A stretch of DNA of 64,000 nt from Stappia sp. TSB10P1A (GTDB lineage Bacteria; Pseudomonadota; Alphaproteobacteria; Rhizobiales; Stappiaceae): the NCBI RefSeq assembly GCF_900185725.1, contig NZ_FYAU01000036.1:124001-188000 (forward strand), written 5' to 3'. The position numbers and the translations under genes were made by a program. Below, one piece after another: positions 42,276 to 59,911 of the stretch (positions within the stretch are counted from its first letter, which is position 1; every line of letters starts with the position of its first letter). Below the pieces are notes generated by a model. It was not told where the DNA came from. It searched no databases and was given only the letters and a program-made list of their open reading frames with translations.

Positions 42276-43055
42276 TCAGGTGAAGCGGACCCGCCGCCGC
42301 GCGGGGCGGACAGGCTCTGACGCGGCAGACGAGTGCGGACGCACCGTGTCGTCAGTCTCGCGGGTCGCCGGCGCGGCGAGTTGGAGACCCGCCTCCCCGC
42401 GCTCGTCTTCCCCTTCGCATGCACCCGCCACCTGGTCTTGCGGATCCTCGCCTCCGCGCTCGGCAGCGTCAGGGAGCAGCGCCTCGGCGCGCTCCGGTGT
42501 GTCCTGCACGGGTTCACCGGAAACGAGGTCACCGGAAGCGAGGTCACCGGCACGGTCCGGAGCGGGCACTCCGTCGACGCTGTCCGCGACCGCCTCCAAG
42601 TTTTCGTCGACTTCGGCCATCCAGCCATAACCCTTGCCAACCTGCCAGGACGAACGGACGCCGTGCGCGAAGGTCTCGACCTTGCGATAGTCCTCGTCGT
42701 AATCGTTGAGCCCATCAAGGCAGGCCAGCACAGGGTTCGACCGCCACAACCTGCGCAAGGCGGCATTTTTCAGTTGGGTGGAAACTCCGTCCTTCAGAAA
42801 GACCGAATAATCGGATTCAAAGCCGAGCGTCTCCAGATCGACGGACTCGGCCGCGGCCTGGTTGGCAGCGGCAGTCTCCTCCTGCGAAGGCCTTTCCAGC
42901 GCCGCGTCGCCCTGCGCAGTGGTATCGGCATCTGCCGCCCCAGCCGGCTCCATCCCCGCCAGATCGTCACTCCCAGCGGTTCTCTCCTGCTGTCGTGCCG
43001 CCTGCTTGCGCTGCGACCACCGCGACAAGAATCCGCTGTCGGCCTCTCTCGTCAC
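42276..43055 (-). CDS. DUF3306 domain protein
   Basis: 259 residues from a GTG at 43055 that overlaps the DUF3305 stop by 4 bases. The conserved N-terminal part (DSGFLSRWSQRKQAARQ, later LKNAALRRLWRSNPVLACLDGLNDYDEDY) is the DUF3306 signature; the rest is acidic, low-complexity and Arg-rich at the end. DUF3305 and DUF3306 genes accompany formate dehydrogenase operons in many alpha- and betaproteobacteria. Their role is not established; a link to FDH maturation or electron transfer is inferred from context. Confidence 0.82.
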   Translation of the reverse strand: MTREADSGFLSRWSQRKQAARQQERTAGSDDLAGMEPAGAADADTTAQGDAALERPSQEETAAANQAAAESVDLETLGFESDYSVFLKDGVSTQLKNAALRRLWRSNPVLACLDGLNDYDEDYRKVETFAHGVRSSWQVGKGYGWMAEVDENLEAVADSVDGVPAPDRAGDLASGDLVSGEPVQDTPERAEALLPDAAERGGEDPQDQVAGACEGEDERGEAGLQLAAPATRETDDTVRPHSSAASEPVRPARRRVRFT

Positions 43056-43567
43056 TGATCCCGCTCCTCCTTGCGGCCGAGCGGCGAGAAGATCGGCTCC
43101 TTGCCGAAAATCTGCTTCTCCAACTCGACACGGTCGCGGCGGCGCTTGCGGAAGGCGGGCGCCTCCGGCAGGGAGCCAAGATACTGAGCCATCCAGGCGA
43201 CCGTTTCCCGCGGCATCGGCACGCGCTCGACGAGGCCTTCGGCACTGTCGAGTACCCCTTGCGCTTCGTACGGATCCGCCGTCACGCCGCGCACCCTGTA
43301 GGGCGGATTCCTCGCCACGATCTCGTCGTCCAGCATCGCCCATATCGACGGCTCGCCGGTCTCGATATTGGCGTCATAGGCCTCGACCATCTTGTGATGC
43401 AGGACCAGCATGTGCGGCGAAGACAGGTAGCGGGTGACGCCGTCCTGGTCCTGGATCACCGTCCAGCCTTCGGTCGGCGGCGCATCGGGGATCACCTCGA
43501 CGACCGCCCAGGACCAGTCCGCCCATTTTGACGGCGATGGGCGGCGTTCGAGCACGATACCGAACAT
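43052..43567 (-). CDS. DUF3305 domain protein
   Basis: 171 residues from the ATG at 43567, which has an AGGGAAG site upstream. The family pattern (IVLERRPSPSKWADWSWAVVEVI, VTRYLSSPHMLVLHHKM, ETVAWMAQYLGSLPEAPAFRKRRR) is clear. It is translationally coupled to the DUF3306 gene. The divergent gene across a 252-base gap encodes the large Fe-S protein, so this pair and that protein probably form one functional set with the FDH. Function is unknown. Confidence 0.82.
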   Translation of the reverse strand: MFGIVLERRPSPSKWADWSWAVVEVIPDAPPTEGWTVIQDQDGVTRYLSSPHMLVLHHKMVEAYDANIETGEPSIWAMLDDEIVARNPPYRVRGVTADPYEAQGVLDSAEGLVERVPMPRETVAWMAQYLGSLPEAPAFRKRRRDRVELEKQIFGKEPIFSPLGRKEERDQ

Positions 43568-43819
43568 CGCTGTCACTTCCCTGTGCACCTGACGTCCTCC
43601 CGGTAGACCGCAGTCCGGATGCTCTCCCCGACAGTATGACTCTGGAGCACATGCGCGACAAAGACAATCCGGCCCCTCCACGGCGTTCGCCAGCCACTGG
43701 ACTTGCGTCCTCCAGGCGAAGGGGGAAAACTCTTCGTAACTGCGCTAGTGTCCGGCGGAGCAATCATAAGGCGCGGCGGCTTGCCAGACAGGCTGAGGCC
43801 GTATGCGGGGAGGAACGAC

Positions 43820-45859
43820 ATGGCTTCGAGCAACCCCAGAATCCTGCTGTGCAATTGCGAGAAGACCATGCGTCTCGACGCGCACCGCATCGCCGGTCTG
43901 GAGAAGGACCACATCATCCACACCCAGTTGTGCCGGGCCCAGATGACCTCCTTCGAAAAAGCGCTCGCGACCGGCGAACCGCTGCTGGTGGCGTGCACGC
44001 AGGAGGCCCCGCTTTTCCAGGAAATCGCCGAGGAGCGCGGCGCCGATCAGGATCTCTCCTTCGTCAACATCCGCGAACGGGCGGGCTGGTGCCCTGCCTC
44101 AAGCGATCCGCATCCGAAGATCTCCGCGCTTCTCGCCGAAGCCCTGACGCCGGTCGAACCCGCCGTGCTGCACTCGATCGACTCGGACGGGGTCTGCCTC
44201 GTCTACGGCGCCGGCCAGCAGGCGCTCGACGCGGCGCGGGCGCTGGAGGGGCGACTGTCCGTCTCGCTGCTGCTCAGCGACGCGTCCGACATTCTCCTGC
44301 CCAGCACTCTGGAGATCCCCGTCCATGCCGGCCGCATCCGCACCGTTGCCGGTTCGCTCGGGGATTTCTCGGTGACCGTCGACGGCTATGCCCAGATGCT
44401 GCCTTCTTCGCGAGGAGCCCCGTCCTTCGCGCTGCCGCGCGACGGAGCGAAGGCGACATGCAGTCTCATTCTCGACCTTTCCGGAGACACTCCGCTCGTC
44501 AGCGCGCCGGCAAAGCGCGACGGCTATGTCCGCGTCGATCCGGGCGCTCCGGCGGCGGTGGCGCGGGCCCTGTTCGACTTGGCGGACATGGTCGGCACCT
44601 TCGAGAAGCCGCTCTATGTCACCTATGACGCCTCGATCTGCGTGCATGGCCGCTCCGGCAAAACCGGCTGCACCAACTGTCTCGATGCCTGTCCCGCCGG
44701 CGCGATTTCCAGCATGGGACGCGAAATCGCCATCGATCCGGGCATCTGCGGCGGATGCGGTTCCTGCGCCGCCCATTGCCCCACCGGGGCGGTCAGCTAT
44801 CGCTATCCCGATCGCCGCGGCGAGATCCGCCGCCTCCAGGCTCTCATCGGCACCTATCGCGAGGCGGGCGGCAGCAACGCGGTGCTTCTCGTCCATGACG
44901 GCCAGCATGGCGGCGACCTGATCAACGCGCTCGCCCGCTTCGGCGAGGGATTGCCGGGCAATGTCCTGCCGCATGCCGTCCACTCGGTCACCAGTTTCGG
45001 CCACGACGCGGTCCTCGCCGCCACCCTTGCCGGCGCCAGGCGCATCGTCTTCCTCTGTCCGCCGACCAAGGCGCACGAACTCGATGCGCTGCGAATGGAA
45101 ATCGAGCTTTGCGCGAGCCTGCTGTCCGGCATGGGCTACGTCGCCGCCGACATGTTCACCATCGCCGTGGAAGACGATCCGGACCGTCTCGATGGACACT
45201 TCGCCCTGCCCGCGCCTGGTCCCGCCATCAGGCCGACGAGCGTCGACCCGGTCGGCACCAAGCGCGATGTTGCGCGCAGCGCCATTGCCCGTCTGCTGGA
45301 AGGCGCCCCTTCGGCGCAAGACATCATCGCCCTGCCCTCGCATGCGCCCTATGGCCGGATCCGCATCGCCGCGAAGGGCTGCACGCTGTGCCTTGCCTGC
45401 GTCTCGGCCTGTCCCACGGCGGCCCTGTCCGACAACCCCGACAAACCGCAGGTGAGCCTGACGGAAGCCGCCTGCGTCCAGTGCGGGCTTTGCGCCAACA
45501 CCTGTCCGGAGCAGGTGATCACGCTGGAGGCCCGCTACAACGCCACACCGGCTGCGATGAGGCCGCAGGTGCTGCACGAGGAGGAGCCGGCCACCTGCGT
45601 GTCCTGCGGCAAAGCTTTCGGCACGAAAGCCTCCATCGCCCGCATCCGTGAGAAGCTCTCCGGCAAGCATTGGATGTTCCAGCGCGCCGAGCAGATCGCC
45701 CTGATCGAGATGTGCGACGACTGCCGGATTTCGGCTCAGTGGGAGATGGAGGACACGCCGCTGCGCGGCGGAGCGCGTCCGAGAGTGGTCACCACCGACG
45801 ACTATCTCGCGCTCGACAGGGAGGCGCTGACCGCGGAGGACTTCCTTAAGGACAGTTGA
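43820..45859 (+). CDS. multi-[4Fe-4S] protein of the FDH region
   Basis: 679 residues from the ATG at 43820 with GGGGAGGAA upstream. The N terminus (RILLCNCEKTMRLD, later LLVACTQEAPLFQEIAEERG) resembles the HdrA-type N-terminal domain by eye. Four [4Fe-4S] ferredoxin motifs follow: CTNCLDACP (after CVHGRSGKTG), CGGCGSCAAHCP, CTLCLACVSACP and CVQCGLCANTCP. A middle stretch (VLLVHDGQHGGDLINAL, AGARRIVFLCPP) recalls the MvhD-type hydrogenase iron-sulfur domain. A C-terminal CVSCGK/CDDCRI pair may bind another metal. It is probably a cytosolic electron-transfer partner of the FDH system; the similarity calls are visual. Confidence 0.8.
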   Translation: MASSNPRILLCNCEKTMRLDAHRIAGLEKDHIIHTQLCRAQMTSFEKALATGEPLLVACTQEAPLFQEIAEERGADQDLSFVNIRERAGWCPASSDPHPKISALLAEALTPVEPAVLHSIDSDGVCLVYGAGQQALDAARALEGRLSVSLLLSDASDILLPSTLEIPVHAGRIRTVAGSLGDFSVTVDGYAQMLPSSRGAPSFALPRDGAKATCSLILDLSGDTPLVSAPAKRDGYVRVDPGAPAAVARALFDLADMVGTFEKPLYVTYDASICVHGRSGKTGCTNCLDACPAGAISSMGREIAIDPGICGGCGSCAAHCPTGAVSYRYPDRRGEIRRLQALIGTYREAGGSNAVLLVHDGQHGGDLINALARFGEGLPGNVLPHAVHSVTSFGHDAVLAATLAGARRIVFLCPPTKAHELDALRMEIELCASLLSGMGYVAADMFTIAVEDDPDRLDGHFALPAPGPAIRPTSVDPVGTKRDVARSAIARLLEGAPSAQDIIALPSHAPYGRIRIAAKGCTLCLACVSACPTAALSDNPDKPQVSLTEAACVQCGLCANTCPEQVITLEARYNATPAAMRPQVLHEEEPATCVSCGKAFGTKASIARIREKLSGKHWMFQRAEQIALIEMCDDCRISAQWEMEDTPLRGGARPRVVTTDDYLALDREALTAEDFLKDS

Positions 45860-48562: not shown

Positions 48563-49579
48563 TCAGTTTCGGCGCCGAACTGGCAGGTTTGTCAATAGGT
48601 TCTGCGGCTTCATGCGCACGATATTGTCCGCTCCCATTGCCAGCCCCATCCAGACCGGCTTGCCGCGCATGCTGTCGATGGCATCGCCCCGGCTGTCGAA
48701 GTCCAGACGGAACAGGGCGACGATCCGACCGAGATCTTCATCCCCGACCGGTTTTCCCTCATAAAGGGCATTGAGGATGCGGGTCGCCTCGGCGTCCAGT
48801 CCGACATGCCAGGACCAGCGCTCGTCGCGGATCGATTGCTGCGGCTGGATGCGGACCGAAACGCCATGGAAATGGGCGATCCAGCTTTCCAGAACCCTCG
48901 CGAAGGCATCGAGGGCCGGTTCGGTGAACCGGACGTCGATGGCGGTATCGAAGCGGTCCGAACGGTCCCAGTAGATCGGGGCATTGTCTTCGGTCAGGAC
49001 ATCGAGCGAGACGGAGGGCAGCGGCGTACCGGCTTCGGCCAGCAATGCCCCCAGGCCTCCCAGACCGCCGGTGCGCGAATAGGTCTCGACAGTTTCGGCA
49101 TCCGCCAGCATGAGTTGCCCGTCCGCCGTGGTTGCCGCCTGCTCGCGGAACAGCAGTTCGCCGGCGCGCAAACGCAGAGGATCGGCGACCTTGCGCAGGA
49201 TATTGTGGGCGATGAGGTGCACCAACTGATCGATGAACATCGGCGGAATCGCGATGCCGTTGCCCGCCTGGAACAGGGCGGCATAGCCGCTTTCGATGCT
49301 GCCATGCGCCAGCAGGTGATCCCGGAACCGCAACACGATACGATAGTTGTCCGCCGCGTCCGGGTCCGCGATGGCCGCAAGGTCCTGTTCGCCGACGGGA
49401 GCGAAAGGGTCCGCCATCAGCCTCTCGAACAGGCGGTGCTCGGCGACGCAGGAGTCTTCCACCGGGTGGAGTTCGGGCCGCGTGTAATAGGCACGCAGGA
49501 AATCCGGCGTCACGGCGAGATGGCCATGCGCGTCACGCGTCAGGAGATGCATCCCCGAGGACTTCCAGAATTGCGGCAT
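48563..49579 (-). CDS. uncharacterised protein of the FDH tail (possibly DUF6352)
   Basis: 338 residues, no signal peptide or membrane helix, probably cytosolic. It opens with MPQFWKSSGMHLL and contains VTPDFLRAYYTRPELHPVEDSC, AGNGIAIPPMFIDQLVHLIAHNIL and SIRDERWSWHVGLDAEATRIL. I recall such proteins as DUF6352, but this is from memory. Its ATG overlaps the stop of the preceding gene in TGATG, so it is translationally coupled. It is the last gene of the tightly packed tail. No enzyme motif is recognised; the conserved His/Glu in the HLIAHN stretch could bind a metal, which is speculation. Confidence 0.7.
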   Translation of the reverse strand: MPQFWKSSGMHLLTRDAHGHLAVTPDFLRAYYTRPELHPVEDSCVAEHRLFERLMADPFAPVGEQDLAAIADPDAADNYRIVLRFRDHLLAHGSIESGYAALFQAGNGIAIPPMFIDQLVHLIAHNILRKVADPLRLRAGELLFREQAATTADGQLMLADAETVETYSRTGGLGGLGALLAEAGTPLPSVSLDVLTEDNAPIYWDRSDRFDTAIDVRFTEPALDAFARVLESWIAHFHGVSVRIQPQQSIRDERWSWHVGLDAEATRILNALYEGKPVGDEDLGRIVALFRLDFDSRGDAIDSMRGKPVWMGLAMGADNIVRMKPQNLLTNLPVRRRN

Positions 49580-50064
49580 CACTCGTCCTCGGACACGTCC
49601 CAGATCCGGGCATGGGACCCGTCGCCCGCGCGCTCCACCAGGTGCAGGCTCTCGCGGATCGATCCGTCCTCGTCGATCTCGCGGCTGATCGCCAGCAGCG
49701 CATCGAGGTCCAGTTCCGCGGCAATTTCGGCGGCGTCGTCCAGTTCTGCCTCGGCCACCGACCGCGCGGCCTCCAGAGACGGAGCGCCATGTTCGGCGAC
49801 GAAATGCTCCGAAAGTCGCTCGATCAGTCGCTCGCGCTCCCCGTCTGGCAGGTCGGCCGGGGTCGCCAGCGTCGCCCAGCCGAAATTCTCCAGAGACAGG
49901 AACCCGGAAACAAAGGCCTGGCGCAGTTTCCCGGTCAGCCCCTCGTCTGTATAGGCGCGAAACGCGAAAGTTCCGGGGATCACCCAGTCGCCCGCTTCCG
50001 CCGCCTGCGGGAACACCTTCGTGTCCGATGCATCGAGCCGGATCGCCTTCAACAGCCGTGTCAT
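49579..50064 (-). CDS. uncharacterised small protein of the FDH tail (possibly DUF6505)
   Basis: 161 residues, soluble and acidic. The N terminus reads RLLKAIRLDASDTKVFPQAA, followed by DWVIPGTFAFR and LSLENFGWATLATPAD, and the rest is helical and Glu/Asp-rich. I recall this as DUF6505 but cannot verify it. Its start overlaps the stop of the ligase-like gene by 4 bases (50061-50064) and its stop overlaps the next start. This chain of overlaps argues for a common assembly task. No function is proposed. Confidence 0.7.
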   Translation of the reverse strand: MTRLLKAIRLDASDTKVFPQAAEAGDWVIPGTFAFRAYTDEGLTGKLRQAFVSGFLSLENFGWATLATPADLPDGERERLIERLSEHFVAEHGAPSLEAARSVAEAELDDAAEIAAELDLDALLAISREIDEDGSIRESLHLVERAGDGSHARIWDVSEDE

Positions 50065-50882
50065 CGGTCAATCACCTCACTGTGGAGCGCCAGCGCAGCA
50101 TCCAGGCTGTCGAGCCGGTCAAGTTGATCCAGGTGCCGGTCGAGCGGCACCGCCACCACCGTCACCGGTTCTGCGTCCATTGGCCTGAGGAGCAGGTTTC
50201 CGGCTTCGTCGAGCCCCAGAAACGTGCCACGCAGGTCGCCATCCGGGTCGGGCAGCACGACCTCACCCTTATAGCCATCTGCCCGAAACAGCCAGTTCTC
50301 AACGACCGGGCCAAACCCCTCGACCTCCCAGGTGTGGAGCCACGTCATCAGGTGGCGCGCCAGGGCCTCCACCGCGAGCGTGCCATCGAGATCCGCCGCC
50401 CCCTCGTCGGAAAGGCTGGTCAGATGCGGGATCTCTCCGGGCTCCACGTCTCCGCCGACCGGGGCAAGGCGCATCTCGATGCCGACCACCAGCCACAGCG
50501 GCGCGCCCTCCTCGTCCAGGTCTGCCGACTGCCGGAACCGGGCCCGTCCGACCCGCGCTCCGTTCGCACGCAGCGTGGCTGGCCAGACATAGGTCAAGGC
50601 AACTTCCGGCGGGATGAGCGTGCCGATCGCATCTGTGCTCGCGACCATGGCAAGAAACAGCATCTCGGCGCAGCGCGTGGGCGGCACATCAGGTTCCAGC
50701 ACAAGGGCGATCCGCAAGTGGCTCCGGCTCTCGGACCACAGCAGGTCGCCGGCGGAGTAGCGGCCGGCTTCCGCGCCGGAGACCGCTGCGTCGAAAGGGT
50801 GCTCGCAAGCTGGCCTCCTGTGCCCGGCCAGCAAGGGCGGCAGGCGTGGGTCGGAAGGCGCTTTGTCCTTTTGTTCCGGCAC
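50061..50882 (-). CDS. biotin/lipoate protein ligase-like protein, catalytic residues not seen
   Basis: 273 residues. The region around 36-130 aligns by eye with the BPL/LplA fold: LLWSESRSHLRIALVLEPD parallels the biotin ligase W-S-G-NL-SL-L-P strand, and TYVWPATLRANGARVGRARF parallels KWPND-L-NG-K-AG. The adenylate-binding GRGRRG loop is absent, KWPND reads VWPAT (99-103), and the catalytic lysine position reads Arg or Ala (NGARVGR, 107-113). The C-terminal ~70 residues (GEVVLPDPDGDLRGTFLGLDEAGNLLLRP) look like the SH3-like cap (DUF4444 type). It may be a pseudoenzyme used as a scaffold. It lies in the overlapping FDH-tail run. Confidence 0.72.
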   Translation of the reverse strand: MPEQKDKAPSDPRLPPLLAGHRRPACEHPFDAAVSGAEAGRYSAGDLLWSESRSHLRIALVLEPDVPPTRCAEMLFLAMVASTDAIGTLIPPEVALTYVWPATLRANGARVGRARFRQSADLDEEGAPLWLVVGIEMRLAPVGGDVEPGEIPHLTSLSDEGAADLDGTLAVEALARHLMTWLHTWEVEGFGPVVENWLFRADGYKGEVVLPDPDGDLRGTFLGLDEAGNLLLRPMDAEPVTVVAVPLDRHLDQLDRLDSLDAALALHSEVIDR

Positions 50883-50940
50883 GATGCAGGCATTCCTTCA
50901 AAAAATGATTCCGCAGCCTCCCGACAGGTCCGGCAAGGTC

Positions 50941-51132
50941 TCAGCCGAGATCGATCTGACCTGTCACAACATGTTCGAACTCCTGTCCATCCAGTGTCAG
51001 CACCACCCGGGCGGACAACGTGCCCGTCGTCAGGCCGGCCTCGCGAACATGAGTCTCCAGCGCCTGTTGCGAGGTGACGCCGACCTGCTTGAGGAACTTC
51101 CTCAGAGACATGTTGAAGGTCTCGTCGTTCAT
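50941..51132 (-). CDS. 63-residue protein of the FDH tail (possibly DUF6494)
   Basis: 63 residues from the ATG at 51132 (MNDETFNMSLRKFLKQVG). The sequence is one helix (SLRKFLKQVGVTSQQALETHVREAG) followed by two or three beta strands (LSARVVLTLDGQEFEHVVTGQIDLG). I recall it as DUF6494, from memory. It sits between the protease gene and the ligase-like gene, 58 bases before the latter. An AGGAGAAA site precedes the start. Function is unknown. Confidence 0.75.
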   Translation of the reverse strand: MNDETFNMSLRKFLKQVGVTSQQALETHVREAGLTTGTLSARVVLTLDGQEFEHVVTGQIDLG

Positions 51133-51156
51133 GGTTTTCTCCTGATGCCTGGGGCG

Positions 51157-51180
51157 GGGCAAAGGCGAAACCTTTCGCCC
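51157..51180 (-). other. intra-operon hairpin before the 63-residue gene
   Basis: GGGC-AAAGG and CCTTT-(C)-GCCC form a 9-bp stem with one bulged base around CGAAA. It lies in the 115-base gap between the HtrA-like gene and the 63-residue gene, just upstream of the latter's ribosome site. There is no T-tract. It could attenuate or protect the mRNA. Confidence 0.35.
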
Positions 51181-51247
51181 GCCTCCCGTTGAGATTGTGA
51201 ATCACCAATCTGCGATGAAGAGTCCGCGCAGTCGAGCAAGCTATTGA

Positions 51248-52201
51248 TCAGTCTGCAACTTTCAGATCCACTTGAAGTTCTGAGTCTTCCCGGCGGACGA
51301 TCAGCCGGCCGCGCGCATCGCGGCGCTCCAGGCGCCCGCGAAACGCCGCCAGCTTGCTGACGGATACGCCGTCGATCGAGAGGATGACGTCACCGGGCGC
51401 AAGGCCGGCCCGGTGTGCGGCTCCGTCCTCATCAACGGAAATCACTTCGAGACCCGCCTTGTCGGGACCGGGCCGCGTTGGCCGCACCTGCGCGCCGAGA
51501 CTGCGACGCGGGCTGGCGAACGTGATCGCGGCCTCGATCACGTGCTCAGCGAGCGCCGCCGAGACAGCGAAGTTCACTCCGATATCGCCGTCCCCGGACT
51601 TGGTGAAGATCGCCGAGAGAATGCCCACGATCCTCCCTTCGCTATCAATCAGAGCGCCGCCCGACGCGCCCGGATTGACCGCCGCGTCGGTCTGGATGAA
51701 GTCCTCGACCGCATTGAACCCGACGCCGCCCCTCGCCGTTGCCGATACCACGCCGCAACTCAACGAGATCCCAAGGCCAAAGCCATTGCCGAGCGCGCAT
51801 ACCGGAGCACCCAGGCCGGGCTGCGGCGCAAAGACGAGTGGCGGCAGGGCCTCGGGCGCGCGCAGAATGGCGAGGTCGGTCTCGGCATCCCGGAAGATGA
51901 TTTCCGCCGGAAGAACGCGGCCGTCGGAAAAGCGCAGGCGAACACCCCGGGCCTGACCAAGCACGTGATCGGCGGTGAGCAGCATGGTGCCGTCGCCGAT
52001 CGCCACGGCCGAGCCTTCCGGTTCTTCCGCATTGGCACGGCCTTCGGGCCAGTCCGGCAGCACGGCAACCACCGCGGCCTGCGCGCGCTCCAGCAGGTTC
52101 GCCGGTGCCGGCTGTGCTGATGCGCCCACGCCCGCGAAGATCGTCAGTGGCGCGGCACAAAAAAACGCGCGCAAGATGCCTGGGCGGACGTGCACGGTCA
52201 T
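51248..52201 (-). CDS. HtrA-like S1C serine protease with PDZ domain
   Basis: 317 residues with an N-terminal signal peptide (cleavage near residue 29, GASAQP). The trypsin-like triad is visible: His79 in TADHVLG, Asp109 in ETDLAILR and Ser180 in NPGASGGALID. One PDZ domain follows at about 225-310 (AGLAPGDVILSIDGV). Such periplasmic proteases degrade or chaperone damaged proteins. It is a shorter form with one PDZ. Its ATG overlaps the stop of a 54-residue membrane protein gene, so it is part of the FDH tail. It may serve quality control of the exported complex; this is inference. Confidence 0.9.
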   Translation of the reverse strand: MTVHVRPGILRAFFCAAPLTIFAGVGASAQPAPANLLERAQAAVVAVLPDWPEGRANAEEPEGSAVAIGDGTMLLTADHVLGQARGVRLRFSDGRVLPAEIIFRDAETDLAILRAPEALPPLVFAPQPGLGAPVCALGNGFGLGISLSCGVVSATARGGVGFNAVEDFIQTDAAVNPGASGGALIDSEGRIVGILSAIFTKSGDGDIGVNFAVSAALAEHVIEAAITFASPRRSLGAQVRPTRPGPDKAGLEVISVDEDGAAHRAGLAPGDVILSIDGVSVSKLAAFRGRLERRDARGRLIVRREDSELQVDLKVAD

Positions 52202-52362
52202 TTACCCGGTCGCTTGCCGCTGTCCGGCGAAAGCCGCACCGCACCCGCCGTCTGCGATGTGTAGACGGAGGCCGACGAGTAATCCAGTTCGCGGGTGAGA
52301 TAGGCCCACGCCCCCGTCCCGATCACGACGAGCGCAACAAGTGCGCTGACGAACGCCTTCAT
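52198..52362 (-). CDS. 54-residue single-helix membrane protein
   Basis: 54 residues. It starts with an N-terminal hydrophobic helix (KAFVSALVALVVIGTGAWAYL, here broken by the Lys at position 2) and has a short periplasmic-type tail (TRELDYSSASVYTSQTAG, then SPDSGKRPGK). Its ATG overlaps the stop of the WD40-cytochrome c gene (ATGA) and its stop overlaps the start of the protease gene. The exact double overlap and clean signal/anchor argue that this is a real gene. No family is recognised. It could anchor or regulate its neighbours. Confidence 0.7.
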   Translation of the reverse strand: MKAFVSALVALVVIGTGAWAYLTRELDYSSASVYTSQTAGAVRLSPDSGKRPGK

Positions 52363-53747
52363 TGCTTTTGTTCTCCCTCGCTGCCGACCCCGCCGGCATC
52401 GGGCGCGGTCGCTCGTTTGAGATAGACCACCAGCGCGTTACGCTCCTCGTCGTTCGTCAGGCGCTGAAGCGGCATCTTGGACCCCGGCGTCACGATATCC
52501 GGGCCATGGTCGAAGAGATCGGAGATCGTCTGCTCGGTCCAGATGAAGTCGAGACGGCGCAGCGCTTCCGAATAGGGATAGCCCGGCAGTGTTCCGACCC
52601 GTCGTCCGAAGACGCCGTAGAGCGTCGGGCCGGCGCGGTTGCCGTCATCCGGCGTCAGCGTGTGGCAGACGGAACATTTTCGCGCGAATTGCCGTCGTCC
52701 CGGATCCTCGTCCTCGGCCACCTGGAAGCGGCGCGGAAAGGCGCTCTCGACCGGCTCGAAGGCCTTGCGGGGAGCCACCTGCCAGACATTCACATGGTCG
52801 TCGAGGCCGGCATACAGGGCTACCGAACCGTCGCCCGGCAGGGCCGTGCCCCAGATCGGACCGTAAGGGTTCTCGAACTCCTCCAGCCCCTCCCATCCGT
52901 CCGTTGCATAGACGCGGATGCGTCCGTCGCCACCGCCACTGGCAAGGCGGTGCCCATCGCCCGACAGCGCCAGCGACAGGACGGGCCGCTCGTGGCTGGC
53001 GAGCTGCTTGAAGACCGCGCCTTGCGCGATGTCGACCACCGCCACCTCACCGTCGGCGGCGCCAAAAACAAGGTGCTGCCCACCGGGCAGCAGGCGCATC
53101 ACATTGATGGCCCAGCCATGCGAGTAGACCTCTTGCAGAAACTCGCCGCTCTCCCGGTCGAAGAGCCGGATCGCGCCGTCATAGGAGGCCGTATAGACGC
53201 GGGCTCCGTCTTCGGAGAAGGCGACGGCATTGACGGTGCCGCGGTGGCCGCGCAGCACGGCGCGCTCGGTCAGCCGGTCGCTCTCCAGAGTGTAAATCCT
53301 GGCCGTCCAGTCCCAGGACGCGGTCGCCGCGAAGCGGCCATCCGGGCTGACGGCGACCGCCAGCATCTTGTCGTCGCCGGTATCGGTCCGGTCGAGCATC
53401 GTCCCCGTATCAAGGTCCCAGAGGATCACCGCCCCATCGTCCCCGACCGACACCGCACGGCCCGCACCGGCGAAGGCCGCATCATTGGCGGCGGCCTCGT
53501 GGCCGATCATGCGATGCAGGATCTTCGCCTCGCCCTCGCTGATGTCCCAAAGGATGACCGAATAGTCGAAGGACGCGGTGAGCACTTGCGCATCCTCCGG
53601 ATCGACCGTGACCGACCTTACCGGCCCGCCATGTCCTTGCAACCGCTCCGGCCATGTCGGCCCGCCGTCGTCTGCGGCTTCGCAGACGCCGGTAGCGGCC
53701 AACACCAGAGCGGCCGAAACCGCAAGACCCCTGATCGCCGCCGACAC
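52359..53747 (-). CDS. WD40 beta-propeller fused to a C-terminal cytochrome c domain
   Basis: 462 residues from a GTG at 53747 with a GGGAG site upstream. A signal peptide (about 1-24, ending GVCEAADD) is followed by seven WD40-like repeats (about 36-325: YSVILWDI, GAVILWDL, WTARIYTL, GAIRLFDR, GEVAVVDI, GRIRVYAT, DHVNVWQV). A C-terminal class I cytochrome c follows, with CSVCH at 358-362 and likely axial Met425 in SKMPLQ. Such propeller-cytochrome fusions occur beside formate dehydrogenases. It follows the cytochrome b gene by 14 bases and may be a periplasmic electron acceptor or docking subunit. Confidence 0.9.
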   Translation of the reverse strand: MSAAIRGLAVSAALVLAATGVCEAADDGGPTWPERLQGHGGPVRSVTVDPEDAQVLTASFDYSVILWDISEGEAKILHRMIGHEAAANDAAFAGAGRAVSVGDDGAVILWDLDTGTMLDRTDTGDDKMLAVAVSPDGRFAATASWDWTARIYTLESDRLTERAVLRGHRGTVNAVAFSEDGARVYTASYDGAIRLFDRESGEFLQEVYSHGWAINVMRLLPGGQHLVFGAADGEVAVVDIAQGAVFKQLASHERPVLSLALSGDGHRLASGGGDGRIRVYATDGWEGLEEFENPYGPIWGTALPGDGSVALYAGLDDHVNVWQVAPRKAFEPVESAFPRRFQVAEDEDPGRRQFARKCSVCHTLTPDDGNRAGPTLYGVFGRRVGTLPGYPYSEALRRLDFIWTEQTISDLFDHGPDIVTPGSKMPLQRLTNDEERNALVVYLKRATAPDAGGVGSEGEQKQ

Positions 53748-53761
53748 GTCGTGCTCCCGGG

Positions 53762-54919
53762 CTATTCGGCAGGCTGCGCCTCCGCCCCGCCGTTCTGTTC
53801 TCCCTCGCGGGCCATCACCTCATCCACCCACAGGGAATGATGCTCCTTCGCCCAGTTGAGATCGACCTCGCCCGATCCCATCGCATCGAAAGCCCCCTCC
53901 ATGCCGATCGTGCCGATATAGATATGCGCAAGGATCACGCAGATCAGGAAGACGCTCATGATCGAATGCCAGAGCGAAGCGAGTTGCTGCTCCTGCAACG
54001 GTGTCAGAGCGGTGGGGAGCTCGCTCCCGAACACCGTGTTGACCACTTCGAACGTGCCGGAGAAGAAGTGCGTGGTGTAGGGAAACAGCAATGTCCAGCC
54101 GGACAGGGAGATCGACACGCCGCACAGGATCGTCAGCCAGAAGATCACCTTCTGCCCGGCATTGAACTTCTTCGCCGGAGGATGGAGCCGGCGCGAGAGA
54201 ACACCGCCTCCCTGCAGCACCCATTTGATATCGGTTCGGTCCGGAAGATTGTGCCGCACCCACATCAGGAACACGATGACCAGGCCCGCCATGAAGGCGA
54301 AGGCAAGGTAATTGTGCAGGTACTTGCCGAACATGGTGATCGCTCCGAAGGCGTCCGGTCCGATCAAGGGCAGCAACACGTAACGGCCATACATGACATT
54401 GAGGCCGGTCAGCGCCAGCACGATGAAGGAGATTGCCAGCAGCCAGTGGCCGAAGCGCTCGACAGCGACGAAACGGGTAATGGTCCGGTCGGATCGCCCG
54501 TGCTCGATGCGAATGCGTCCGCGAATGGCGAAGAAAAGGCTCAGCGCCACGACCGTCGCCAGCAGCGCCCAACTGCCATAGAGGGCGAGTGGACCATTGC
54601 GGATCGAGCGCCAGAGTTCGCCCTCCGACTGCACCAGGGTCGCAGCGTTCCTGTCGGGGATCGACACGCTGCCGGCAACACCCTGTCGTACGGCGCGCCA
54701 CAGGTCGGTGTCGGAAACGGTGCCGCGCGTGTTTCCGGGAACCTGGCCCTGCACCGGCGACTCAGGCGCCGGGTCGAGTATGGGCTGCTGCGCCAGGGCC
54801 GGCGCCTGCATGGTCAGCGCCAGGAAGACCACCGCGACCGCAGCAAGAACAACCGCATGGAGACGCAGCGCAAGTGCGTGCGGCCAGCCGGCGTGGCGAA
54901 TGGTTCCCGTGTGGTTCAT
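53762..54919 (-). CDS. fdhC: formate dehydrogenase gamma subunit, cytochrome b556
   Basis: 385 residues. An N-terminal signal/anchor (HAVVLAAVAVVFLALT) precedes a periplasmic stretch of ~80 residues, followed by a helix near 115-130 and four core helices starting at HWLLAISFIVLALTG. Histidines positioned for two b hemes are seen in ERFGHWLLAI, KYLHNYLAF and ASLWHSIMSV/CVILAHIYIG. The subunit passes electrons from FdhB to the quinone pool. It is encoded after the small lipoprotein gene and before the WD40-cytochrome c gene. The long N-terminal extension is characteristic of the alphaproteobacterial type. Confidence 0.92.
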   Translation of the reverse strand: MNHTGTIRHAGWPHALALRLHAVVLAAVAVVFLALTMQAPALAQQPILDPAPESPVQGQVPGNTRGTVSDTDLWRAVRQGVAGSVSIPDRNAATLVQSEGELWRSIRNGPLALYGSWALLATVVALSLFFAIRGRIRIEHGRSDRTITRFVAVERFGHWLLAISFIVLALTGLNVMYGRYVLLPLIGPDAFGAITMFGKYLHNYLAFAFMAGLVIVFLMWVRHNLPDRTDIKWVLQGGGVLSRRLHPPAKKFNAGQKVIFWLTILCGVSISLSGWTLLFPYTTHFFSGTFEVVNTVFGSELPTALTPLQEQQLASLWHSIMSVFLICVILAHIYIGTIGMEGAFDAMGSGEVDLNWAKEHHSLWVDEVMAREGEQNGGAEAQPAE

Positions 54920-54973: not shown

Positions 54974-55171
54974 TCAGAACCGCTGCCTGTTGGCACGCTC
55001 CTGCAGAGCACGGCGCTCCTCCGCGGTGAGCGGCGCGTCGTCCGCTCCCTGATAGACCCCCTTCTCCAGATGCAGCGGCCGGTTCTGCTCGTCCTCCCGG
55101 CATCCCGGCACGAACGCGAGCAGCGTGGCCGCGACGATCATCATGCCCCAGGCGGCTGGTCCCGATTTCAC
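54974..55171 (-). CDS. 65-residue putative lipoprotein of the FDH operon
   Basis: 65 residues from a GTG at 55171 that has AAGGAG 8 bases upstream. The hydrophobic segment MIVAATLLAFVPGC ends in a lipobox-like VPGC, so the mature protein should start at Cys and be lipidated. The mature part is short and charged (GVYQGADDAPLTAEERRALQERANRQRF). It sits between fdhB and the cytochrome b gene. It could tether the complex to the membrane; no family is certain. Confidence 0.65.
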   Translation of the reverse strand: MKSGPAAWGMMIVAATLLAFVPGCREDEQNRPLHLEKGVYQGADDAPLTAEERRALQERANRQRF

Positions 55172-55276: not shown

Positions 55277-55876
55277 TCAGAAGCTTCCGGCCTTCTGCTC
55301 GTAGGCGGTGCCCCATCCCCAGGCGCCCGCGCCGAAGCCGCGCGCCACGACACGCTCGCGATAGATCGCCGAGACTACATCGCCGTCACCCGCCAGCAGC
55401 GCCTTGGTCGAGCACATTTCCGCGCAGAGCGGCAACTTGCCCTCCGCCAGGCGGTTGCGGCCATATTTGGCATATTCGACCGAGGAGTTGTCGGCTTCAG
55501 GACCGCCGGCGCAGAAGGTGCACTTGTCCATCTTGCCGCGCGAGCCGAAGTTGCCGGCCTGCGGATATTGCGGCGCGCCGAAGGGACAGGCGTAGAAGCA
55601 ATAGCCGCAGCCGATACACAGGTCCTTGGAATGGAGAACCACCCCCTCGTCGGTCTGATAGAAGCAATCGACCGGACAGACTGCCATGCAGGGCGCATCC
55701 GAGCAGTGCATGCAAGCGACCGAAATGGAGCGCTCGCCCGGCTTTCCGTCCTGCAGGGTCACCACGCGGCGGCGATTGATGCCCCAAGGCACTTCATGCT
55801 CGTTCTTGCAGGCGGTGACGCAGGCATTGCACTCGATGCAGCGCTCGGCGTCGCAGAGGAATTTCATTCGTGCCAT
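55277..55876 (-). CDS. fdhB: formate dehydrogenase beta subunit, [4Fe-4S] protein
   Basis: 199 residues with four ferredoxin-type clusters: CDAERCIECNACVTACKNEH, CMHCSDAPCMAVCP, CIGCGYCFYACPFG, and a final set with CTFC and CAEMC. Electrons pass from the FdhA molybdopterin through these to the cytochrome b subunit. Unlike E. coli FdnH/FdoH it has no C-terminal membrane helix, so it is the short (Fdh3B) type. It lacks a signal peptide and should leave the cell by co-export with FdhA through Tat. It is 12 bases after fdhA. Confidence 0.94.
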   Translation of the reverse strand: MARMKFLCDAERCIECNACVTACKNEHEVPWGINRRRVVTLQDGKPGERSISVACMHCSDAPCMAVCPVDCFYQTDEGVVLHSKDLCIGCGYCFYACPFGAPQYPQAGNFGSRGKMDKCTFCAGGPEADNSSVEYAKYGRNRLAEGKLPLCAEMCSTKALLAGDGDVVSAIYRERVVARGFGAGAWGWGTAYEQKAGSF

Positions 55877-55888
55877 GATCTCTCCCCC

Positions 55889-58786
55889 TTACGCCACACG
55901 CTCGATGCGACACAGCGTGGCCTTGGTTTCCTGCATCTGGGTGACGCTGTCGTAGCCATAGGTTTGTGCAGTGTTGGTTGCCTCGCCCAGCACGTAGGGG
56001 TCGGACCCGACCGGATACTTGCTCCGGAGATCCTCGCCCTGGTAGTGGCCGCCGAAGTGGAACGGCATGAAGGCGACGCCGACGCCGACGCGCTCGGTCA
56101 CCATCGCCATCACCTTGACCTTGCCGCCCTCCGGGCCGTGCACCCACACCATTTCCCTGTCGCGAATGCCCAGATCGTTGGCATCGCGCGGATTGATCTC
56201 GACGAACATGTCCTGCTGCAACTCGGCCAGCCACCGGTTGGAGCGGGTCTCGTCGCCGCCGCCCTCGTATTCCACCAGGCGTCCCGACGTCAGGATGATC
56301 GGGAAGTCCTGGGAATAGTCGTTCTCCTGGATCGACTTGTAGCGCGTTGGTACGCGCCAGAAGGTCTTGTCCTCGTAGGTCGCGTACTTGTCGAGCAGGT
56401 CGCGGCGATTGGTGTAGAGCGGTTCGCGGTGCAGCGGCACCGGATCCGGGAAGGTCCACACCACGGTGCGGGCCTTTGCATTGCCATAGGGGGCACAGCC
56501 GTGCTTGATCGCCACGCGCTGGATGCCGCCGGACAGGTCGATCTTCCAGTTGGCATTCTCGCCGCCGGCGGCCTCAATTTCGGCCCGCTCCTCGTCGGTC
56601 AGGTCGACATCCCAGCCAAGCTTCTGCAGCATGGCCATGGTGAACTCGGGATAGCCGTCCTCGATCTCCGAGCCAACCGGCCAGGACCCTTCCGCGAGCA
56701 GGTTGTCGCCGTTCCTCTCGACGCCGAAGCGGGCACGGAAGCCCATGCCGCCCTCCGCCACCGGAATGGACGTGTCATAAAGGACGGCCGAACCCGGATG
56801 CTTCATCTCCGGCGTACCCCAGCACGGCCATGGCAAGCCGTAATAATCGCCGTCGGCCGGACCGCCATTGGCGCGCAGCGTCGTGCGGTCGAACGTATGC
56901 TGGTTGGCCATGTGCAGCTTCAACCGCTCCGGCGACTGGCCGGTATAGCCGATGGTCCACATGCCGCGATTGTATTCGCGCGTCAGGTCCTCGATGAGCG
57001 GCTCCTCACCGTTCACTTCGATGTTCTTGAACATTCCTTCCGCGAAGCCGAACTTTTTCGCCAGCAGATAGGCGATGGTGTGATCGGTCTTGGATTCGAA
57101 CAGCGGCTCCATCACCTTCTCGCGCCATTGCAGCGAGCGGTTCGACGCCGTCACCGACCCGTAGGTCTCGAACTGGGTGGTCGCAGGCAGCAGATAGACA
57201 CCGTCCTTGCGATCGCTCAGCACCGCCGACATGGTCGGGAACGGGTCGATGATCACCAGCAGGTCGAGCTTCTCCATTGCCCGCTTCATGTCGGGCAGGC
57301 GGGTCTGCGAGTTCGGAGCGTGGCCCCAGAACACCATCGCCCGCGTGTTGTCCGGCTGGACCAGATTGTCCTTGTCCTCCAACACGCCGTCTATCCAGCG
57401 CGACACCGGGATGCCGGTCTCGAACATCATCGGGCGGTCCTTGCCGTCGGCGCCCTTCATGGTGGCGAAACGGCCCGCCAGATAGTCGTAATCGACATCC
57501 CACACCCGCGCCCAGTGACGCCAGGCCCCCTCGGCAAGACCGTAGTATCCGGGAAGGGAGTCGGCGACGACGCCGAAGTCCGTCGCGCCCTGGACGTTGT
57601 CATGGCCACGGAAGATGTTGGCGCCGCCACCCGACATGCCGATATTGCCGAGCGCTAATTGCAAGGCACAATAGGCACGCGTGTTGTTGTTGCCGTTGGT
57701 ATGCTGGGTTCCGCCCATGCACCAGACCAGCGTACCGGGACGGTTGTTGGCAAGCGTACGGGCAACGCGGCGCAACTGCGAACCGGGAACGCCCGTGACG
57801 CGCTCCGTTTCCTCGGGTGTCCACTTGGCCACCTCGGCGCGAATCTGATCCATGCCCCAGACGCGCTGGCGGATGTACTCCTTGTCCTCCCAGCCATTCT
57901 GGAAGATGTGCCAGAGAATCCCCCAGACGAGGGCCACGTCCGTGCCCGGACGGAAGCGGACATATTCGCTCGCGTGAGCCGCCGTGCGGGTAAACCGCGG
58001 ATCACAGACGATCAGCGGCGCAGCGTTCTCCTCCTTGGCCTTGAGGATGTGCAGCAGGGAAACGGGATGCGCCTCGGCGGGATTGCTGCCGATCAGGAGC
58101 ATCGCCTTGGACTTGTGCATGTCGTTGTAGGAGTTTGTCATCGCGCCGTAGCCCCAGGTGTTGGCAACACCTGCGACTGTGGTCGAGTGACAGATCCGCG
58201 CCTGGTGATCAACGTTGTTCGTGCCCCAGAACGCGGCGAACTTGCGCACCAGATAGGCCTGCTCGTTGTTGTGCTTGGCCGAGCCGAGCCAGTAGACGCT
58301 GTCGGGTCCGCTTTCGTCGCGGATCTTCAGCATCTGGTCGCCGATCTCGTCGATCGCCTGTTCCCAGGAGATCCGCTCCCACTTTCCGTTGACCAGCTTG
58401 GTGGGGTACTTGAGCCGCCGCTCGCCATGGGCGTGTTCGCGCACGGCCGCGCCCTTGGCGCAGTGCGAGCCGAGATTGAACGGGCTGTCGAAGCCCGGTT
58501 CCTGACCGGTCCAAACGCCGTCCTGAACCTCCGCCAACACCGTGCAGCCGACCGAGCAATGGGTGCAGATGGACTTCTTGATATCGACCCGTGCCCTGGT
58601 CGGCCCGGCCGCCTCCGCCTTGCGCACCATGGTGCCGGTCAGGGCTCCGGCGGCGGCCAGCCCGCCCGCGGCGAGGCCCGATCGACGCAGGAACATGCGG
58701 CGGTCCATCGCACTCGCACCGATTGCCTCGATGGCGGAAGCCAGGCTGGACCGACGTGCCGTCCCGCTCGTCTTCTTCCTCAGCAT
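55889..58786 (-). CDS. fdhA: formate dehydrogenase alpha subunit (Mo/W-bis-MGD), cysteine type
   Basis: 965 residues. The N terminus is a Tat signal (Arg29-Arg30 in DRRMFLRRSGLAAGG). The [4Fe-4S] cluster uses Cys74, Cys77, Cys81 and Cys109. The active-site residue that is Sec in E. coli is Cys199 here, in ARICHSTTVAGVAN, so no SECIS/TGA is needed. The C terminus is the molydopterin-dinucleotide-binding domain (INPRDANDLGIRD). It oxidises formate to CO2 in the periplasm. The ATG at 58786 was preferred over the GTG one codon upstream because of the GGGAG spacing. Confidence 0.95.
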   Translation of the reverse strand: MLRKKTSGTARRSSLASAIEAIGASAMDRRMFLRRSGLAAGGLAAAGALTGTMVRKAEAAGPTRARVDIKKSICTHCSVGCTVLAEVQDGVWTGQEPGFDSPFNLGSHCAKGAAVREHAHGERRLKYPTKLVNGKWERISWEQAIDEIGDQMLKIRDESGPDSVYWLGSAKHNNEQAYLVRKFAAFWGTNNVDHQARICHSTTVAGVANTWGYGAMTNSYNDMHKSKAMLLIGSNPAEAHPVSLLHILKAKEENAAPLIVCDPRFTRTAAHASEYVRFRPGTDVALVWGILWHIFQNGWEDKEYIRQRVWGMDQIRAEVAKWTPEETERVTGVPGSQLRRVARTLANNRPGTLVWCMGGTQHTNGNNNTRAYCALQLALGNIGMSGGGANIFRGHDNVQGATDFGVVADSLPGYYGLAEGAWRHWARVWDVDYDYLAGRFATMKGADGKDRPMMFETGIPVSRWIDGVLEDKDNLVQPDNTRAMVFWGHAPNSQTRLPDMKRAMEKLDLLVIIDPFPTMSAVLSDRKDGVYLLPATTQFETYGSVTASNRSLQWREKVMEPLFESKTDHTIAYLLAKKFGFAEGMFKNIEVNGEEPLIEDLTREYNRGMWTIGYTGQSPERLKLHMANQHTFDRTTLRANGGPADGDYYGLPWPCWGTPEMKHPGSAVLYDTSIPVAEGGMGFRARFGVERNGDNLLAEGSWPVGSEIEDGYPEFTMAMLQKLGWDVDLTDEERAEIEAAGGENANWKIDLSGGIQRVAIKHGCAPYGNAKARTVVWTFPDPVPLHREPLYTNRRDLLDKYATYEDKTFWRVPTRYKSIQENDYSQDFPIILTSGRLVEYEGGGDETRSNRWLAELQQDMFVEINPRDANDLGIRDREMVWVHGPEGGKVKVMAMVTERVGVGVAFMPFHFGGHYQGEDLRSKYPVGSDPYVLGEATNTAQTYGYDSVTQMQETKATLCRIERVA

Positions 58787-58921
58787 CACGTTTCTCCCTC
58801 GGTTGCGCAGCCTCGCGCCAAGGCGATGTCTGCTGCGCCTGGGCCCTGACGCGGGTGGCGCGGGTCCTTGTTTGCACCTGCGGCGACTGCGGCTTCAGTC
58901 TGCCTCACGGCTCTTTCGAGC

Positions 58922-59113
58922 TCAGAACCGCGCCGTGTCGTAGAAGGTCTTCACATGCTCGGTTTCCCGATAGCCGCTGCCGGCGGTCTTGGCCGCCTCT
59001 TCGGCCCCGGCCTCGCCCGTCACGAGCGTGGCCGTTCCGGCCACCGCGCCAAGTCCGGCCAGTTTCAGAAAACTCCGGCGATCCGCCTCGATCGCTGTAT
59101 CCTTGCGTCTCAT
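58922..59113 (-). CDS. small Tat-signal protein of formate dehydrogenase region
   Basis: 63 residues. The N-terminal half is a Tat signal (DRRSFLKLAGLGAVAGTATLVTG) and the rest is short and ends FYDTARF. This matches the small 'formate dehydrogenase region Tat target' family (TIGR02811 as I recall). Such proteins occur between the TorD-like gene and fdhA in FDH operons. The role is unknown; it might guide or occupy the export step. A degenerate 10-bp tandem repeat lies just upstream. Confidence 0.88.
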   Translation of the reverse strand: MRRKDTAIEADRRSFLKLAGLGAVAGTATLVTGEAGAEEAAKTAGSGYRETEHVKTFYDTARF

Positions 59114-59236: not shown

Positions 59237-59911
59237 TCAGCCCGCCTTGCGGCGCTCTCCAAACAGCCTGTCGGCCTCGATCTCCAGGGCGATGAACGCC
59301 TGCCCCAGCCGCCCGAGCGCCGGGTAGAGGTCTCCGATGGCGGTCGTCGCCAGATCCTTGAAGAAATACGGCGCCCAGGTCGCCAGATGCGTGCGGAAGA
59401 AGCTGCTTTCCGCATCCTGATCGACGCCGAAGCTGCCATCGATGAGCCCGGCCATCACGGCGCACAGCGCGGCGATGTGGTCTTCCGGCTCGTGCACATC
59501 GGGATCGCGCTCGATCCCGAGGCGGCGCATGTCCTGCCGCAGCAATGCCAGCGGCTTCTCATTTAGAAAACCGGTCAGGTAATAGGATGCATAGGGGACG
59601 AGTTCGCCTCGCCCGACGCCGATGAAGAGGTCGTGGTAATCGCGCCTTAGCACCAACGGGTCAGCTTGAGACGCCGAGCGGGAGAGATCCGCCAGGCAGG
59701 CCCCGATGTCGCCCTCCAGCCGCGGCAGGCCGGCCACCGCGTTCAACCAGCCACAATCGACAGGGCCCTCGAGGCCGCTCGCCAGTATGCCGTAGAGAAT
59801 GGCCCGCTCCCGATCCTCGGCAACGATGCTCATCCTTCCGTCGACGTTGCTGCTGTCCGTCGCTACGGTACTCGCCTCGACGGCAGTCCCGGCACCCGGT
59901 CTGCTGGTCAT
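59237..59911 (-). CDS. TorD/DmsD-family molecular chaperone
   Basis: 224 residues, all-helical. Features of the TorD family are seen in RAILYGILASGLEGP, DYHDLFIGVGRGELVPYASYYLTGFLNEKPLA and EDHIAALCAVMAGLI. These cytosolic chaperones bind the Tat signal and apo-form of molybdoenzymes until cofactor insertion. It is the first gene of the FDH operon, 123 bases before the small Tat-signal gene. Start 59911 has a GGGAG site 9 bases upstream; an internal ATG at 59833 is possible. Confidence 0.88.
   Translation of the reverse strand: MTSRPGAGTAVEASTVATDSSNVDGRMSIVAEDRERAILYGILASGLEGPVDCGWLNAVAGLPRLEGDIGACLADLSRSASQADPLVLRRDYHDLFIGVGRGELVPYASYYLTGFLNEKPLALLRQDMRRLGIERDPDVHEPEDHIAALCAVMAGLIDGSFGVDQDAESSFFRTHLATWAPYFFKDLATTAIGDLYPALGRLGQAFIALEIEADRLFGERRKAG

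Follow-up and report, generated by a model that had tools for sequence, protein, structure and literature searches.

Cytosolic help before export by the twin-arginine translocation (Tat) pathway is given to molybdoenzymes such as formate dehydrogenases (FDHs) by redox enzyme maturation proteins of the FdhD/FdhE and TorD/NarJ families, FdhD acting in sulfur transfer. Genes for DUF3305, DUF3306, a fer4 protein and an fdh-tat peptide occur with the DmsD/TorD-fdhGHI operons (Bay et al., 2015; PMC4464133), and the fdh3ABC genes of Methylorubrum extorquens FDH3 have been named in a source whose available part makes no mention of accessory genes (PMC12445348). The locus described here lies in a stretch of 64,000 nucleotides from Stappia sp. 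TSB10P1A (contig NZ_FYAU01000036.1, positions 124,001 to 188,000), hereafter the window, within which all coordinates are given. It is an FDH3-type operon that continues, beyond its cytochrome b gene, into a tail of seven genes. That this tail belongs to a set dedicated to FDH3 is well supported, and the block probably assists in the assembly or the operation of that enzyme. The set consists of molybdoenzyme accessory genes, largely from undescribed families.

The enzyme is of the same kind as that of the DmsD/TorD-fdhGHI operons, and the upstream accessory genes of those operons are all present in the window; in contrast, the seven-gene tail and its pseudo-ligase, DUF6494, DUF6505 and DUF6352 genes go unmentioned in the available part of that account (Bay et al., 2015). 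As for M. extorquens FDH3, the beta subunit in the window scores 344 bits with the FDH3-type model NF038355, above its cut-off of 240. FdhD and a TorD-type protein are encoded in the window too, but the last four proteins of the tail match neither the FdhD/FdhE nor the TorD/NarJ families (no match up to an E-value of 1). A literature search found no paper naming DUF6494, DUF6505 or DUF6352. The family names already stand beside FDH3 or one another in public plasmid annotation, so that these genes have been annotated but, within the reach of our searches, not discussed.

The tail is formed by seven open reading frames on the minus strand (transcribed from 53747 to 48563), downstream of the FDH cytochrome b gene, as a preliminary description of this DNA had stated. 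The four overlaps between neighbouring genes that it reported were read off the sequence as 4, 4 and 4 bases (ATGA each) and 1 base (TGATG). It had also divided the products into secreted or membrane-bound proteins and four that look cytosolic, and this division was borne out: an N-terminal hydrophobic segment is found in the first three proteins and, at the threshold used, in none of the last four. In order of transcription the genes are:

52359..53747, minus strand: WD40 beta-propeller fused to a one-haem cytochrome c, with an N-terminal hydrophobic segment (462 residues; Pfam WD40)
52198..52362, minus strand: 54-residue protein with a single transmembrane segment, MKAF...VRL family (open reading frame with a hydrophobic segment; no Pfam match above cut-off)
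51248..52201, minus strand: HtrA/Deg-like protease with one PDZ domain, an optional part (317 residues; Pfam Trypsin_2 and PDZ)
50941..51132, minus strand: DUF6494, 63 residues (PF20104, 89 bits, cut-off 24)
50061..50882, minus strand: pseudo biotin/lipoate ligase, 273 residues (PF16917, BPL_LplA_LipB_2, 186 bits, cut-off 27)
49579..50064, minus strand: DUF6505, 161 residues (PF20115, 156 bits, cut-off 24)
48563..49579, minus strand: DUF6352, 338 residues (PF19879, 301 bits, cut-off 25)

The dedication of the set to FDH3 is carried by its distribution. A class sample of 190 evenly sampled genomes was searched with every family. The FDH3 beta subunit scores above cut-off in 27 of them, and the FDH3 genomes number 29 once two cases recognised by fdhA alone are added. 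DUF6352 occurs in 26 class genomes, 23 of which carry an FDH3 beta subunit above cut-off and two more an FDH3 fdhA gene on broken contigs; the resulting 25/26 is kinder than the raw 23/26, since just five genomes (G007, G127, G071, G119 and G001) were checked for fdhA. The association has a Fisher p of 2e-22 on raw counts and of 5e-26 with the two fdhA genomes added. The same check raises the FDH3-positive counts of the pseudo-ligase from 19 to 21, of DUF6505 from 17 to 18 and of DUF6494 from 19 to 21. FDH3 is thus present in all 21 class genomes with the pseudo-ligase, in 18 of the 19 with DUF6505 above cut-off (a weak match in G091, below cut-off, is excluded) and in 21 of the 32 with DUF6494. 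The pseudo-ligase was counted from a gap in the PF16917 scores, which separates an FDH-linked group of at least 125 bits from lower matches, not inspected singly, that were taken as ordinary ligases. The WD40-cytochrome c, at an E-value of 1e-60 or better (a limit of our own choosing, by which a weaker copy in G007 is missed), is found in 18 class genomes, all of them within the raw FDH3 set. When the sample is restricted to the 75 genomes of at least 3.3 Mb, a size cut applied by hand, the association stays for all four families tested (Fisher p of 5e-15 for DUF6352). Conversely, 28 FDH3 genomes encode one or more of DUF6352, DUF6505 and the pseudo-ligase, and the twenty-ninth (G075) has DUF6494 only.

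The single DUF6505 genome without FDH3, G119, is 1.9 Mb in size, and its match (L129:5365-5793) has an internal stop; the gene looks like a relic left after loss of the enzyme.

A phylum sample of 219 genomes, partly overlapping the class sample and searched for FDH3, DUF6352 and DUF6505, gives the same picture: FDH3 is found in 26 genomes, and the 12 genomes with DUF6352 and the 17 with DUF6505 all lie within them (12/12 and 17/17). Among plasmid records, DUF6505 is present on 78 and the FDH3 beta subunit on 96, often from marine Rhodobacterales (e.g., NZ_CP014598.1, L234). The commonest plasmid genera give equal counts for the two (47 in Pseudosulfitobacter and 14 in Sulfitobacter), counts that are not paired by record. 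On a plasmid of Methylobacterium bullatum, FDH3, DUF6352, DUF6505 and the pseudo-ligase lie in one region. An occurrence restricted to genomes with the client enzyme, as would be expected of a maturation factor, comes close to strict in the class sample for the pseudo-ligase, DUF6352 and DUF6505, and does not hold for DUF6494. The preliminary description had proposed a dedicated module for an exported FDH and had named wide occurrence of the genes without FDH as the finding that would speak against it. The co-occurrence search gave no such result for DUF6352, DUF6505, the pseudo-ligase and the WD40-cytochrome c, because these four families are almost confined to FDH3 genomes among those sampled. 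Dedication is thus strongly supported, with amendments: the HtrA protease is not a general member, DUF6494 occurs also without FDH3 and the presumed ligase has lost its active-site residues.

Could the association simply reflect the physical linkage of these genes? Eighty loci with DUF6352, the best of at least 580 relatives, were mapped, a selection that leans towards the window. In 33 of the 80, no FDH or module gene lies within the stretch covered, and an FDH3 beta subunit is encoded elsewhere in 28 of these 33 genomes (27 above cut-off and one partial match of 90 positions that begins at base 2 of a contig), as compared with 27/190 in the class sample. Where at least 8.4 kb is covered on both sides of the solo DUF6352 gene, FDH3 is present in 16 of 16 genomes; the remainder with short flanks gives 12/17, and these 17 loci are not proven to be unlinked since the flank is short on at least one side. 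Two of the solo loci, L187 and L198, add no new evidence because their FDH3 coordinates equal those of G051 and G028 in the class sample. G028, assembled as a single contig, has its FDH genes at approximately 1.27 Mb, DUF6352 at 1.55 Mb, DUF6505 at 1.65 Mb and DUF6494 at 0.71 Mb, a spread of approximately 0.9 Mb. Linkage does not account for the association of DUF6352 with FDH3.

The neighbours that solo DUF6352 genes have in common gave no FDH-related hint. From their translations we take them to be MlaD-type, DUF2155-type and NrdJ-type genes (L164, L177, L178, L186, L189, L191, L192, L198, L203 and others); they recur in several lineages and so seem to mark a long-standing chromosomal location of DUF6352 away from FDH. 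One solo DUF6352 gene (L166) comes from a metagenome assembly titled Bordetella parapertussis, a species name that we guess is probably wrong.

Where the genes are linked, their order is conserved. In the window the order of transcription is the TorD-type gene, a 63-residue Tat protein, fdhA, fdh3B, a lipoprotein-like gene, cytochrome b and the seven-gene tail. The locus maps cover 20 window families. Among the DUF6352-chosen loci, which are biased towards the tail, 31 cytochrome b genes have 7 kb or more of sequence downstream, and behind 11 of them the seven genes recur as an identical tail; in the other mapped locus set all seven genes are found behind none of 13 such cytochrome b genes. 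With both sets pooled and near relatives included, the pseudo-ligase and DUF6505 genes are spaced by at most 50 nucleotides in 41 of 44 adjacencies, and the DUF6505 and DUF6352 genes in 40 of 42. This recurrence of gene order across loci means that it is not due to chance. In Salipiger the annotation places an apbC gene between DUF6494 and the pseudo-ligase, an Mrp match holds the same position in L107, L108 and L109, and one adjoins the pseudo-ligase in L246, L247 and L250. The window itself also carries genes for FdhD, an Mrp/ApbC-type protein, a multi-4Fe-4S protein, DUF3305, DUF3306 and MoaA. Besides the tail, the larger set to which it belongs includes the multi-iron-sulfur protein, DUF3305/DUF3306, TorD and the Tat peptide.

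The fifth protein of the tail is the one that most resembles something known. Active biotin and lipoate ligases, of which BirA and LplA exemplify the chemistry, have a nucleotide loop of the form GRGRxGR and a catalytic lysine. The tail protein is like them in its PF16917 membership (186 bits) and in its nearest solved chain, PDB 3bfm, which it matches over residues 14-236 (E-value 4e-32) and which was deposited as a 'biotin protein ligase-like protein of unknown function'. It was aligned with two motif-keeping ligases, L114 and L115, in both of which the loop was observed, the lysine column being set by L114. The two differ from it and its relatives: among the FDH-linked rows the loop is gone in 20 of 20 from the class loci and in 40 of 40 from the 80-locus set, and lysine is missing from the catalytic position in all 20 class rows and in 38 of the 40 others, so in all rows but two. 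The window protein is included in both sets and has arginine at this position. The class alignment covers 20 of the 21 pseudo-ligase genomes (the exception being L095 of G157), and that of the 80-locus set 39 of 44 loci and the window. L114 (G159) and L115 (G087) had first been grouped with the set and were dropped since, with loop and lysine kept, they look like true ligases. An active ligase with a biotin or lipoyl acceptor was rejected as a reading of the tail protein, given the loss of both motifs. The earlier label 'ligase-like' thus holds for the family and fails for the active site. From its sequence the protein is predicted to be catalytically inactive; as it keeps the sequence family without the chemistry, it most likely acts by binding a partner protein or a cofactor.

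DUF6352, the last protein of the tail, is invariant at 31 alignment columns across 69 sequences, with charged residues at many of them, and shares 88-89% identity with its counterpart in Stappia indica SBBC 49. The alignments of the 80-locus set cover, besides the window, 68 of the 80 loci for DUF6352 and 29 of 30 for DUF6505; those of the other locus set, each with the window, cover 23/25, 16/18, 21/23 (of those listed, one twice) and 29/30. AlphaFold models DUF6352 confidently, with a predicted local distance difference test score (pLDDT) of 92.7 and a predicted template-modelling score of 0.90, and DUF6505 with a pLDDT of 88.1. Foldseek comparison with the PDB gave no match at an E-value of 0.001 or lower for either model (best 0.28 for DUF6352 and 0.07 for DUF6505), which is no proof of a new fold. 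A sequence search of the PDB gave no match for DUF6352 or DUF6494. For DUF6505 it returned the designed protein Octarellin V.1 (E-value 2e-4, no stretch passing alone) and weaker matches, all taken as chance similarity between helices. A common origin of DUF6352 and DUF6505, or of DUF6505 and the pseudo-ligase, was also considered and found nothing in its favour in profile comparisons.

On the periplasmic side, the WD40-cytochrome c has one CxxCH motif in 45 of 48 homologues, and its gene is followed directly by that of the 54-residue protein in 37 adjacencies. The family of the latter (35 rows) has a single transmembrane segment and a VRL-type tail in most listed members. The HtrA protease combines Trypsin_2 and PDZ domains with an intact triad, like Deg/HtrA proteases in general (His in 22/22, Asp in 22/22 and Ser in 23/23 readable rows). 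Unlike them, it belongs to none of the named subfamilies (DegP, DegQ, DegS): it falls short of the threshold of each NCBIfam model listed for it (e.g., degP_htrA_DO, 176 bits as against 416). It accompanies some FDH3 operons only. It is found in 21 of the 80 DUF6352-chosen loci, on the DUF6352 strand in 20 of them; the other locus set gave just two matches, one in the window and one, on the opposite strand, in L070. The preliminary description had counted it in the dedicated set; as a core part it was rejected, being absent from most FDH3 loci mapped, and it is a lineage-limited, optional part.

How might the tail serve the enzyme? We lean, with some reserve, towards a two-layer system around a Tat-exported, Cys-type FDH3, in which the four cytosolic proteins would mature FdhA and FdhB before Tat export and the others would serve the periplasmic side. 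The cytosolic layer would comprise DUF6494, the pseudo-ligase, DUF6505 and DUF6352, joined in some lineages by the iron-sulfur carrier ApbC/Mrp. Alongside TorD and FdhD, the four could hold apo-FdhA and apo-FdhB and aid the insertion of iron-sulfur clusters, of the molybdenum cofactor or of both. The pseudo-ligase would contribute by binding, and DUF6352, rich in invariant charged residues, would be the likeliest of the four to bind a cofactor or act as a catalyst. In the periplasmic layer, the FDH/cytochrome b complex could plausibly pass its electrons to the WD40-cytochrome c or dock on it; the 54-residue protein may act as a small partner in the membrane, and HtrA as a protease specific to certain lineages. 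We infer the cytosolic location, the maturation step and the action of each protein from such features and from context, and likewise the role of the tail as between assembly, quality control and electron transfer. The context argument for maturation is that apbC/Mrp lies within or beside the block in Salipiger, L107-L109, L246, L247 and L250.

Several findings weigh against a dedicated maturation set. The third DUF6352 genome without an FDH3 beta subunit, the 810-contig draft G007, has no FDH3 match at all, with WD40-cytochrome c and 54-residue protein matches beside DUF6352. Five solo DUF6352 loci (L164, L178, L193, L207 and L209), all titled metagenome-assembled genomes and all with short flanks, come from genomes with no FDH3 match. 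Azospirillum plasmids (10), among others, carry the FDH3 beta subunit and no DUF6505 match. Among the 29 FDH3 class genomes, DUF6352 is absent from 4, DUF6505 from 11, the pseudo-ligase from 8 and DUF6494 from 8, so that no single family is universally needed. Both DUF6352 and DUF6505 are absent from 7 of the 26 FDH3 genomes of the phylum sample. DUF6494 occurs without FDH3 in 11 class genomes. An Mrp match is found in only 12 of the 80 DUF6352-chosen loci, and most mapped FDH3 loci are without one. In Salipiger, a second, soluble-type formate dehydrogenase set separates the module from the mobA/mobB/glp/fdhD genes (all within 14 kb), which may for that reason serve the other enzyme. Finally, kinship among the genomes is handled by even sampling alone.

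Of the seven phylum-sample FDH3 genomes without DUF6352 and DUF6505, six group in a single fdhA clade whose gene order differs, and the seventh (G287) stands separately, as does G075 of the class sample. The FDH3 beta subunits of the clade score 308-323 bits, as compared with 326-403 bits in the seven other FDH clusters compared, and on the fdhA tree the presence or absence of the families changes 3 times as against a shuffled mean of 7.5. With one clade and separate cases lacking it, the set belongs to most of the FDH3 lineages sampled and not to all. In the clade itself (L236-L239, L241, L242), a multi-4Fe-4S gene lies inside the operon, between DUF3306 and TorD. As to DUF6494, ten loci from the 11 class genomes without FDH3 were viewed and five are near respiratory genes: it lies at most 0.4 kb from a gene with sdhB (succinate dehydrogenase) domains in L119, L122 and L125, adjoins ccmH with ccmF nearby in L123, and has ccmF 2.7 kb away in L121. 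This hints at a wider respiratory role for DUF6494.

Other explanations differ in how well they withstand these findings. A bolder form of the maturation reading, in which DUF6352 and DUF6505 would be new-fold proteins of an undescribed pathway for cofactor or cluster insertion, the stripped ligase fold passing a cofactor or the apo-enzyme along and ApbC/Mrp supplying iron-sulfur clusters, is a tentative possibility. Alternatively, the cytosolic proteins could regulate FDH and not mature it, sensing formate, a cofactor or the state of the enzyme and adjusting its expression or activity. Four soluble proteins, one from a ligase family without its catalytic residues, could bind a ligand and signal, and they are dispensable in some FDH3 lineages; however, none has a DNA-binding or signalling Pfam domain above cut-off, and an iron-sulfur carrier gene accompanies them in several lineages, so that regulation seems unlikely. 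It is also possible that the module acts not on the enzyme itself but in FDH3-dependent metabolic steps that follow formate, such as the use of C1 compounds or CO2, since co-occurrence alone does not separate an assembly factor from a pathway partner. The linked genes are nevertheless interleaved with those for FDH subunits and maturation proteins, and no recurring pathway enzyme was seen in maps that sought only the 20 window families; we consider this, too, improbable. A tail devoted mainly to periplasmic quality control, with HtrA, the 54-residue protein and the WD40-cytochrome c policing exported FDH and the cytosolic genes as passengers, would fit the conserved HtrA triad and the overlap of the HtrA gene with that of the 54-residue protein in 9 of 16 adjacencies, but the rarity of HtrA at FDH3 loci and the tracking of FDH3 by DUF6352, DUF6505 and the pseudo-ligase make it quite improbable. 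Simple hitchhiking, that is, a common operon inherited jointly without functional link, draws on the contiguity of the genes in relatives of the window and on the plasmid location of such blocks and is very hard to sustain, since the association, which should be lost once linked genomes are removed, was checked and found instead to persist where DUF6352 lies elsewhere (28/33, 16/16 with both flanks covered, and G028).

Families that track one FDH class so tightly make a short list of genes to test. Cofactor delivery to metal-dependent formate dehydrogenases is a practical question for their production in other hosts, and the set may help to account for poor heterologous expression. Three Pfam DUF families and 3bfm, a structure solved and deposited without a function, also gain a common, testable context.

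The other features of the locus are, from the TorD-type gene downstream to cytochrome b and then outwards:

59237..59911, minus strand: TorD/NarJ-type chaperone (PF02613, 103 bits)
58922..59113, minus strand: 63-residue Tat-signal protein upstream of fdhA (open reading frame; homologue directly upstream of fdhA in 61 adjacencies)
55889..58789, minus strand: fdhA, catalytic subunit with a Tat-type RRMFLRR start and cysteine at the active-site position (Pfam Molybdopterin and Molydop_binding)
55277..55876, minus strand: fdh3B, FDH3-type iron-sulfur subunit (NF038355, 344 bits, cut-off 240)
54974..55171, minus strand: small lipoprotein-like gene between fdh3B and cytochrome b (open reading frame)
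53762..54919, minus strand: cytochrome b subunit, FDH gamma (TIGR01583, 155 bits, cut-off 116)
60393..61604, minus strand: Mrp/ApbC-type iron-sulfur carrier, possibly part of the set (PF10609, 344 bits)
62961..63935, plus strand: FdhD sulfurtransferase (PF02634, 258 bits)
43703..45859, plus strand: 718-residue multi-4Fe-4S protein, frequent in FDH3 clusters (Pfam; 36 of the 80 DUF6352-chosen loci)
43052..43567, minus strand: DUF3305 (PF11749, 111 bits)
42276..43055, minus strand: DUF3306 (PF11748, 88 bits)

The homologues of fdhA have cysteine at what we take to be the active-site position in 73 of 75 cases, and the RRxF[LI] pattern in 69 of 75 (unreadable in 2). The Salipiger counterpart of the 63-residue Tat protein is annotated as a 'twin-arginine translocation signal domain-containing protein'. 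Nothing turned up when the window was scanned for Rfam families and tRNA genes. The small lipoprotein-like gene, tested as a longer open reading frame of 86 residues, has no Pfam family above cut-off; its own family comprises 25 rows in the loci, with a common KGxYxG-like motif and, in most, a lipobox-like cysteine.

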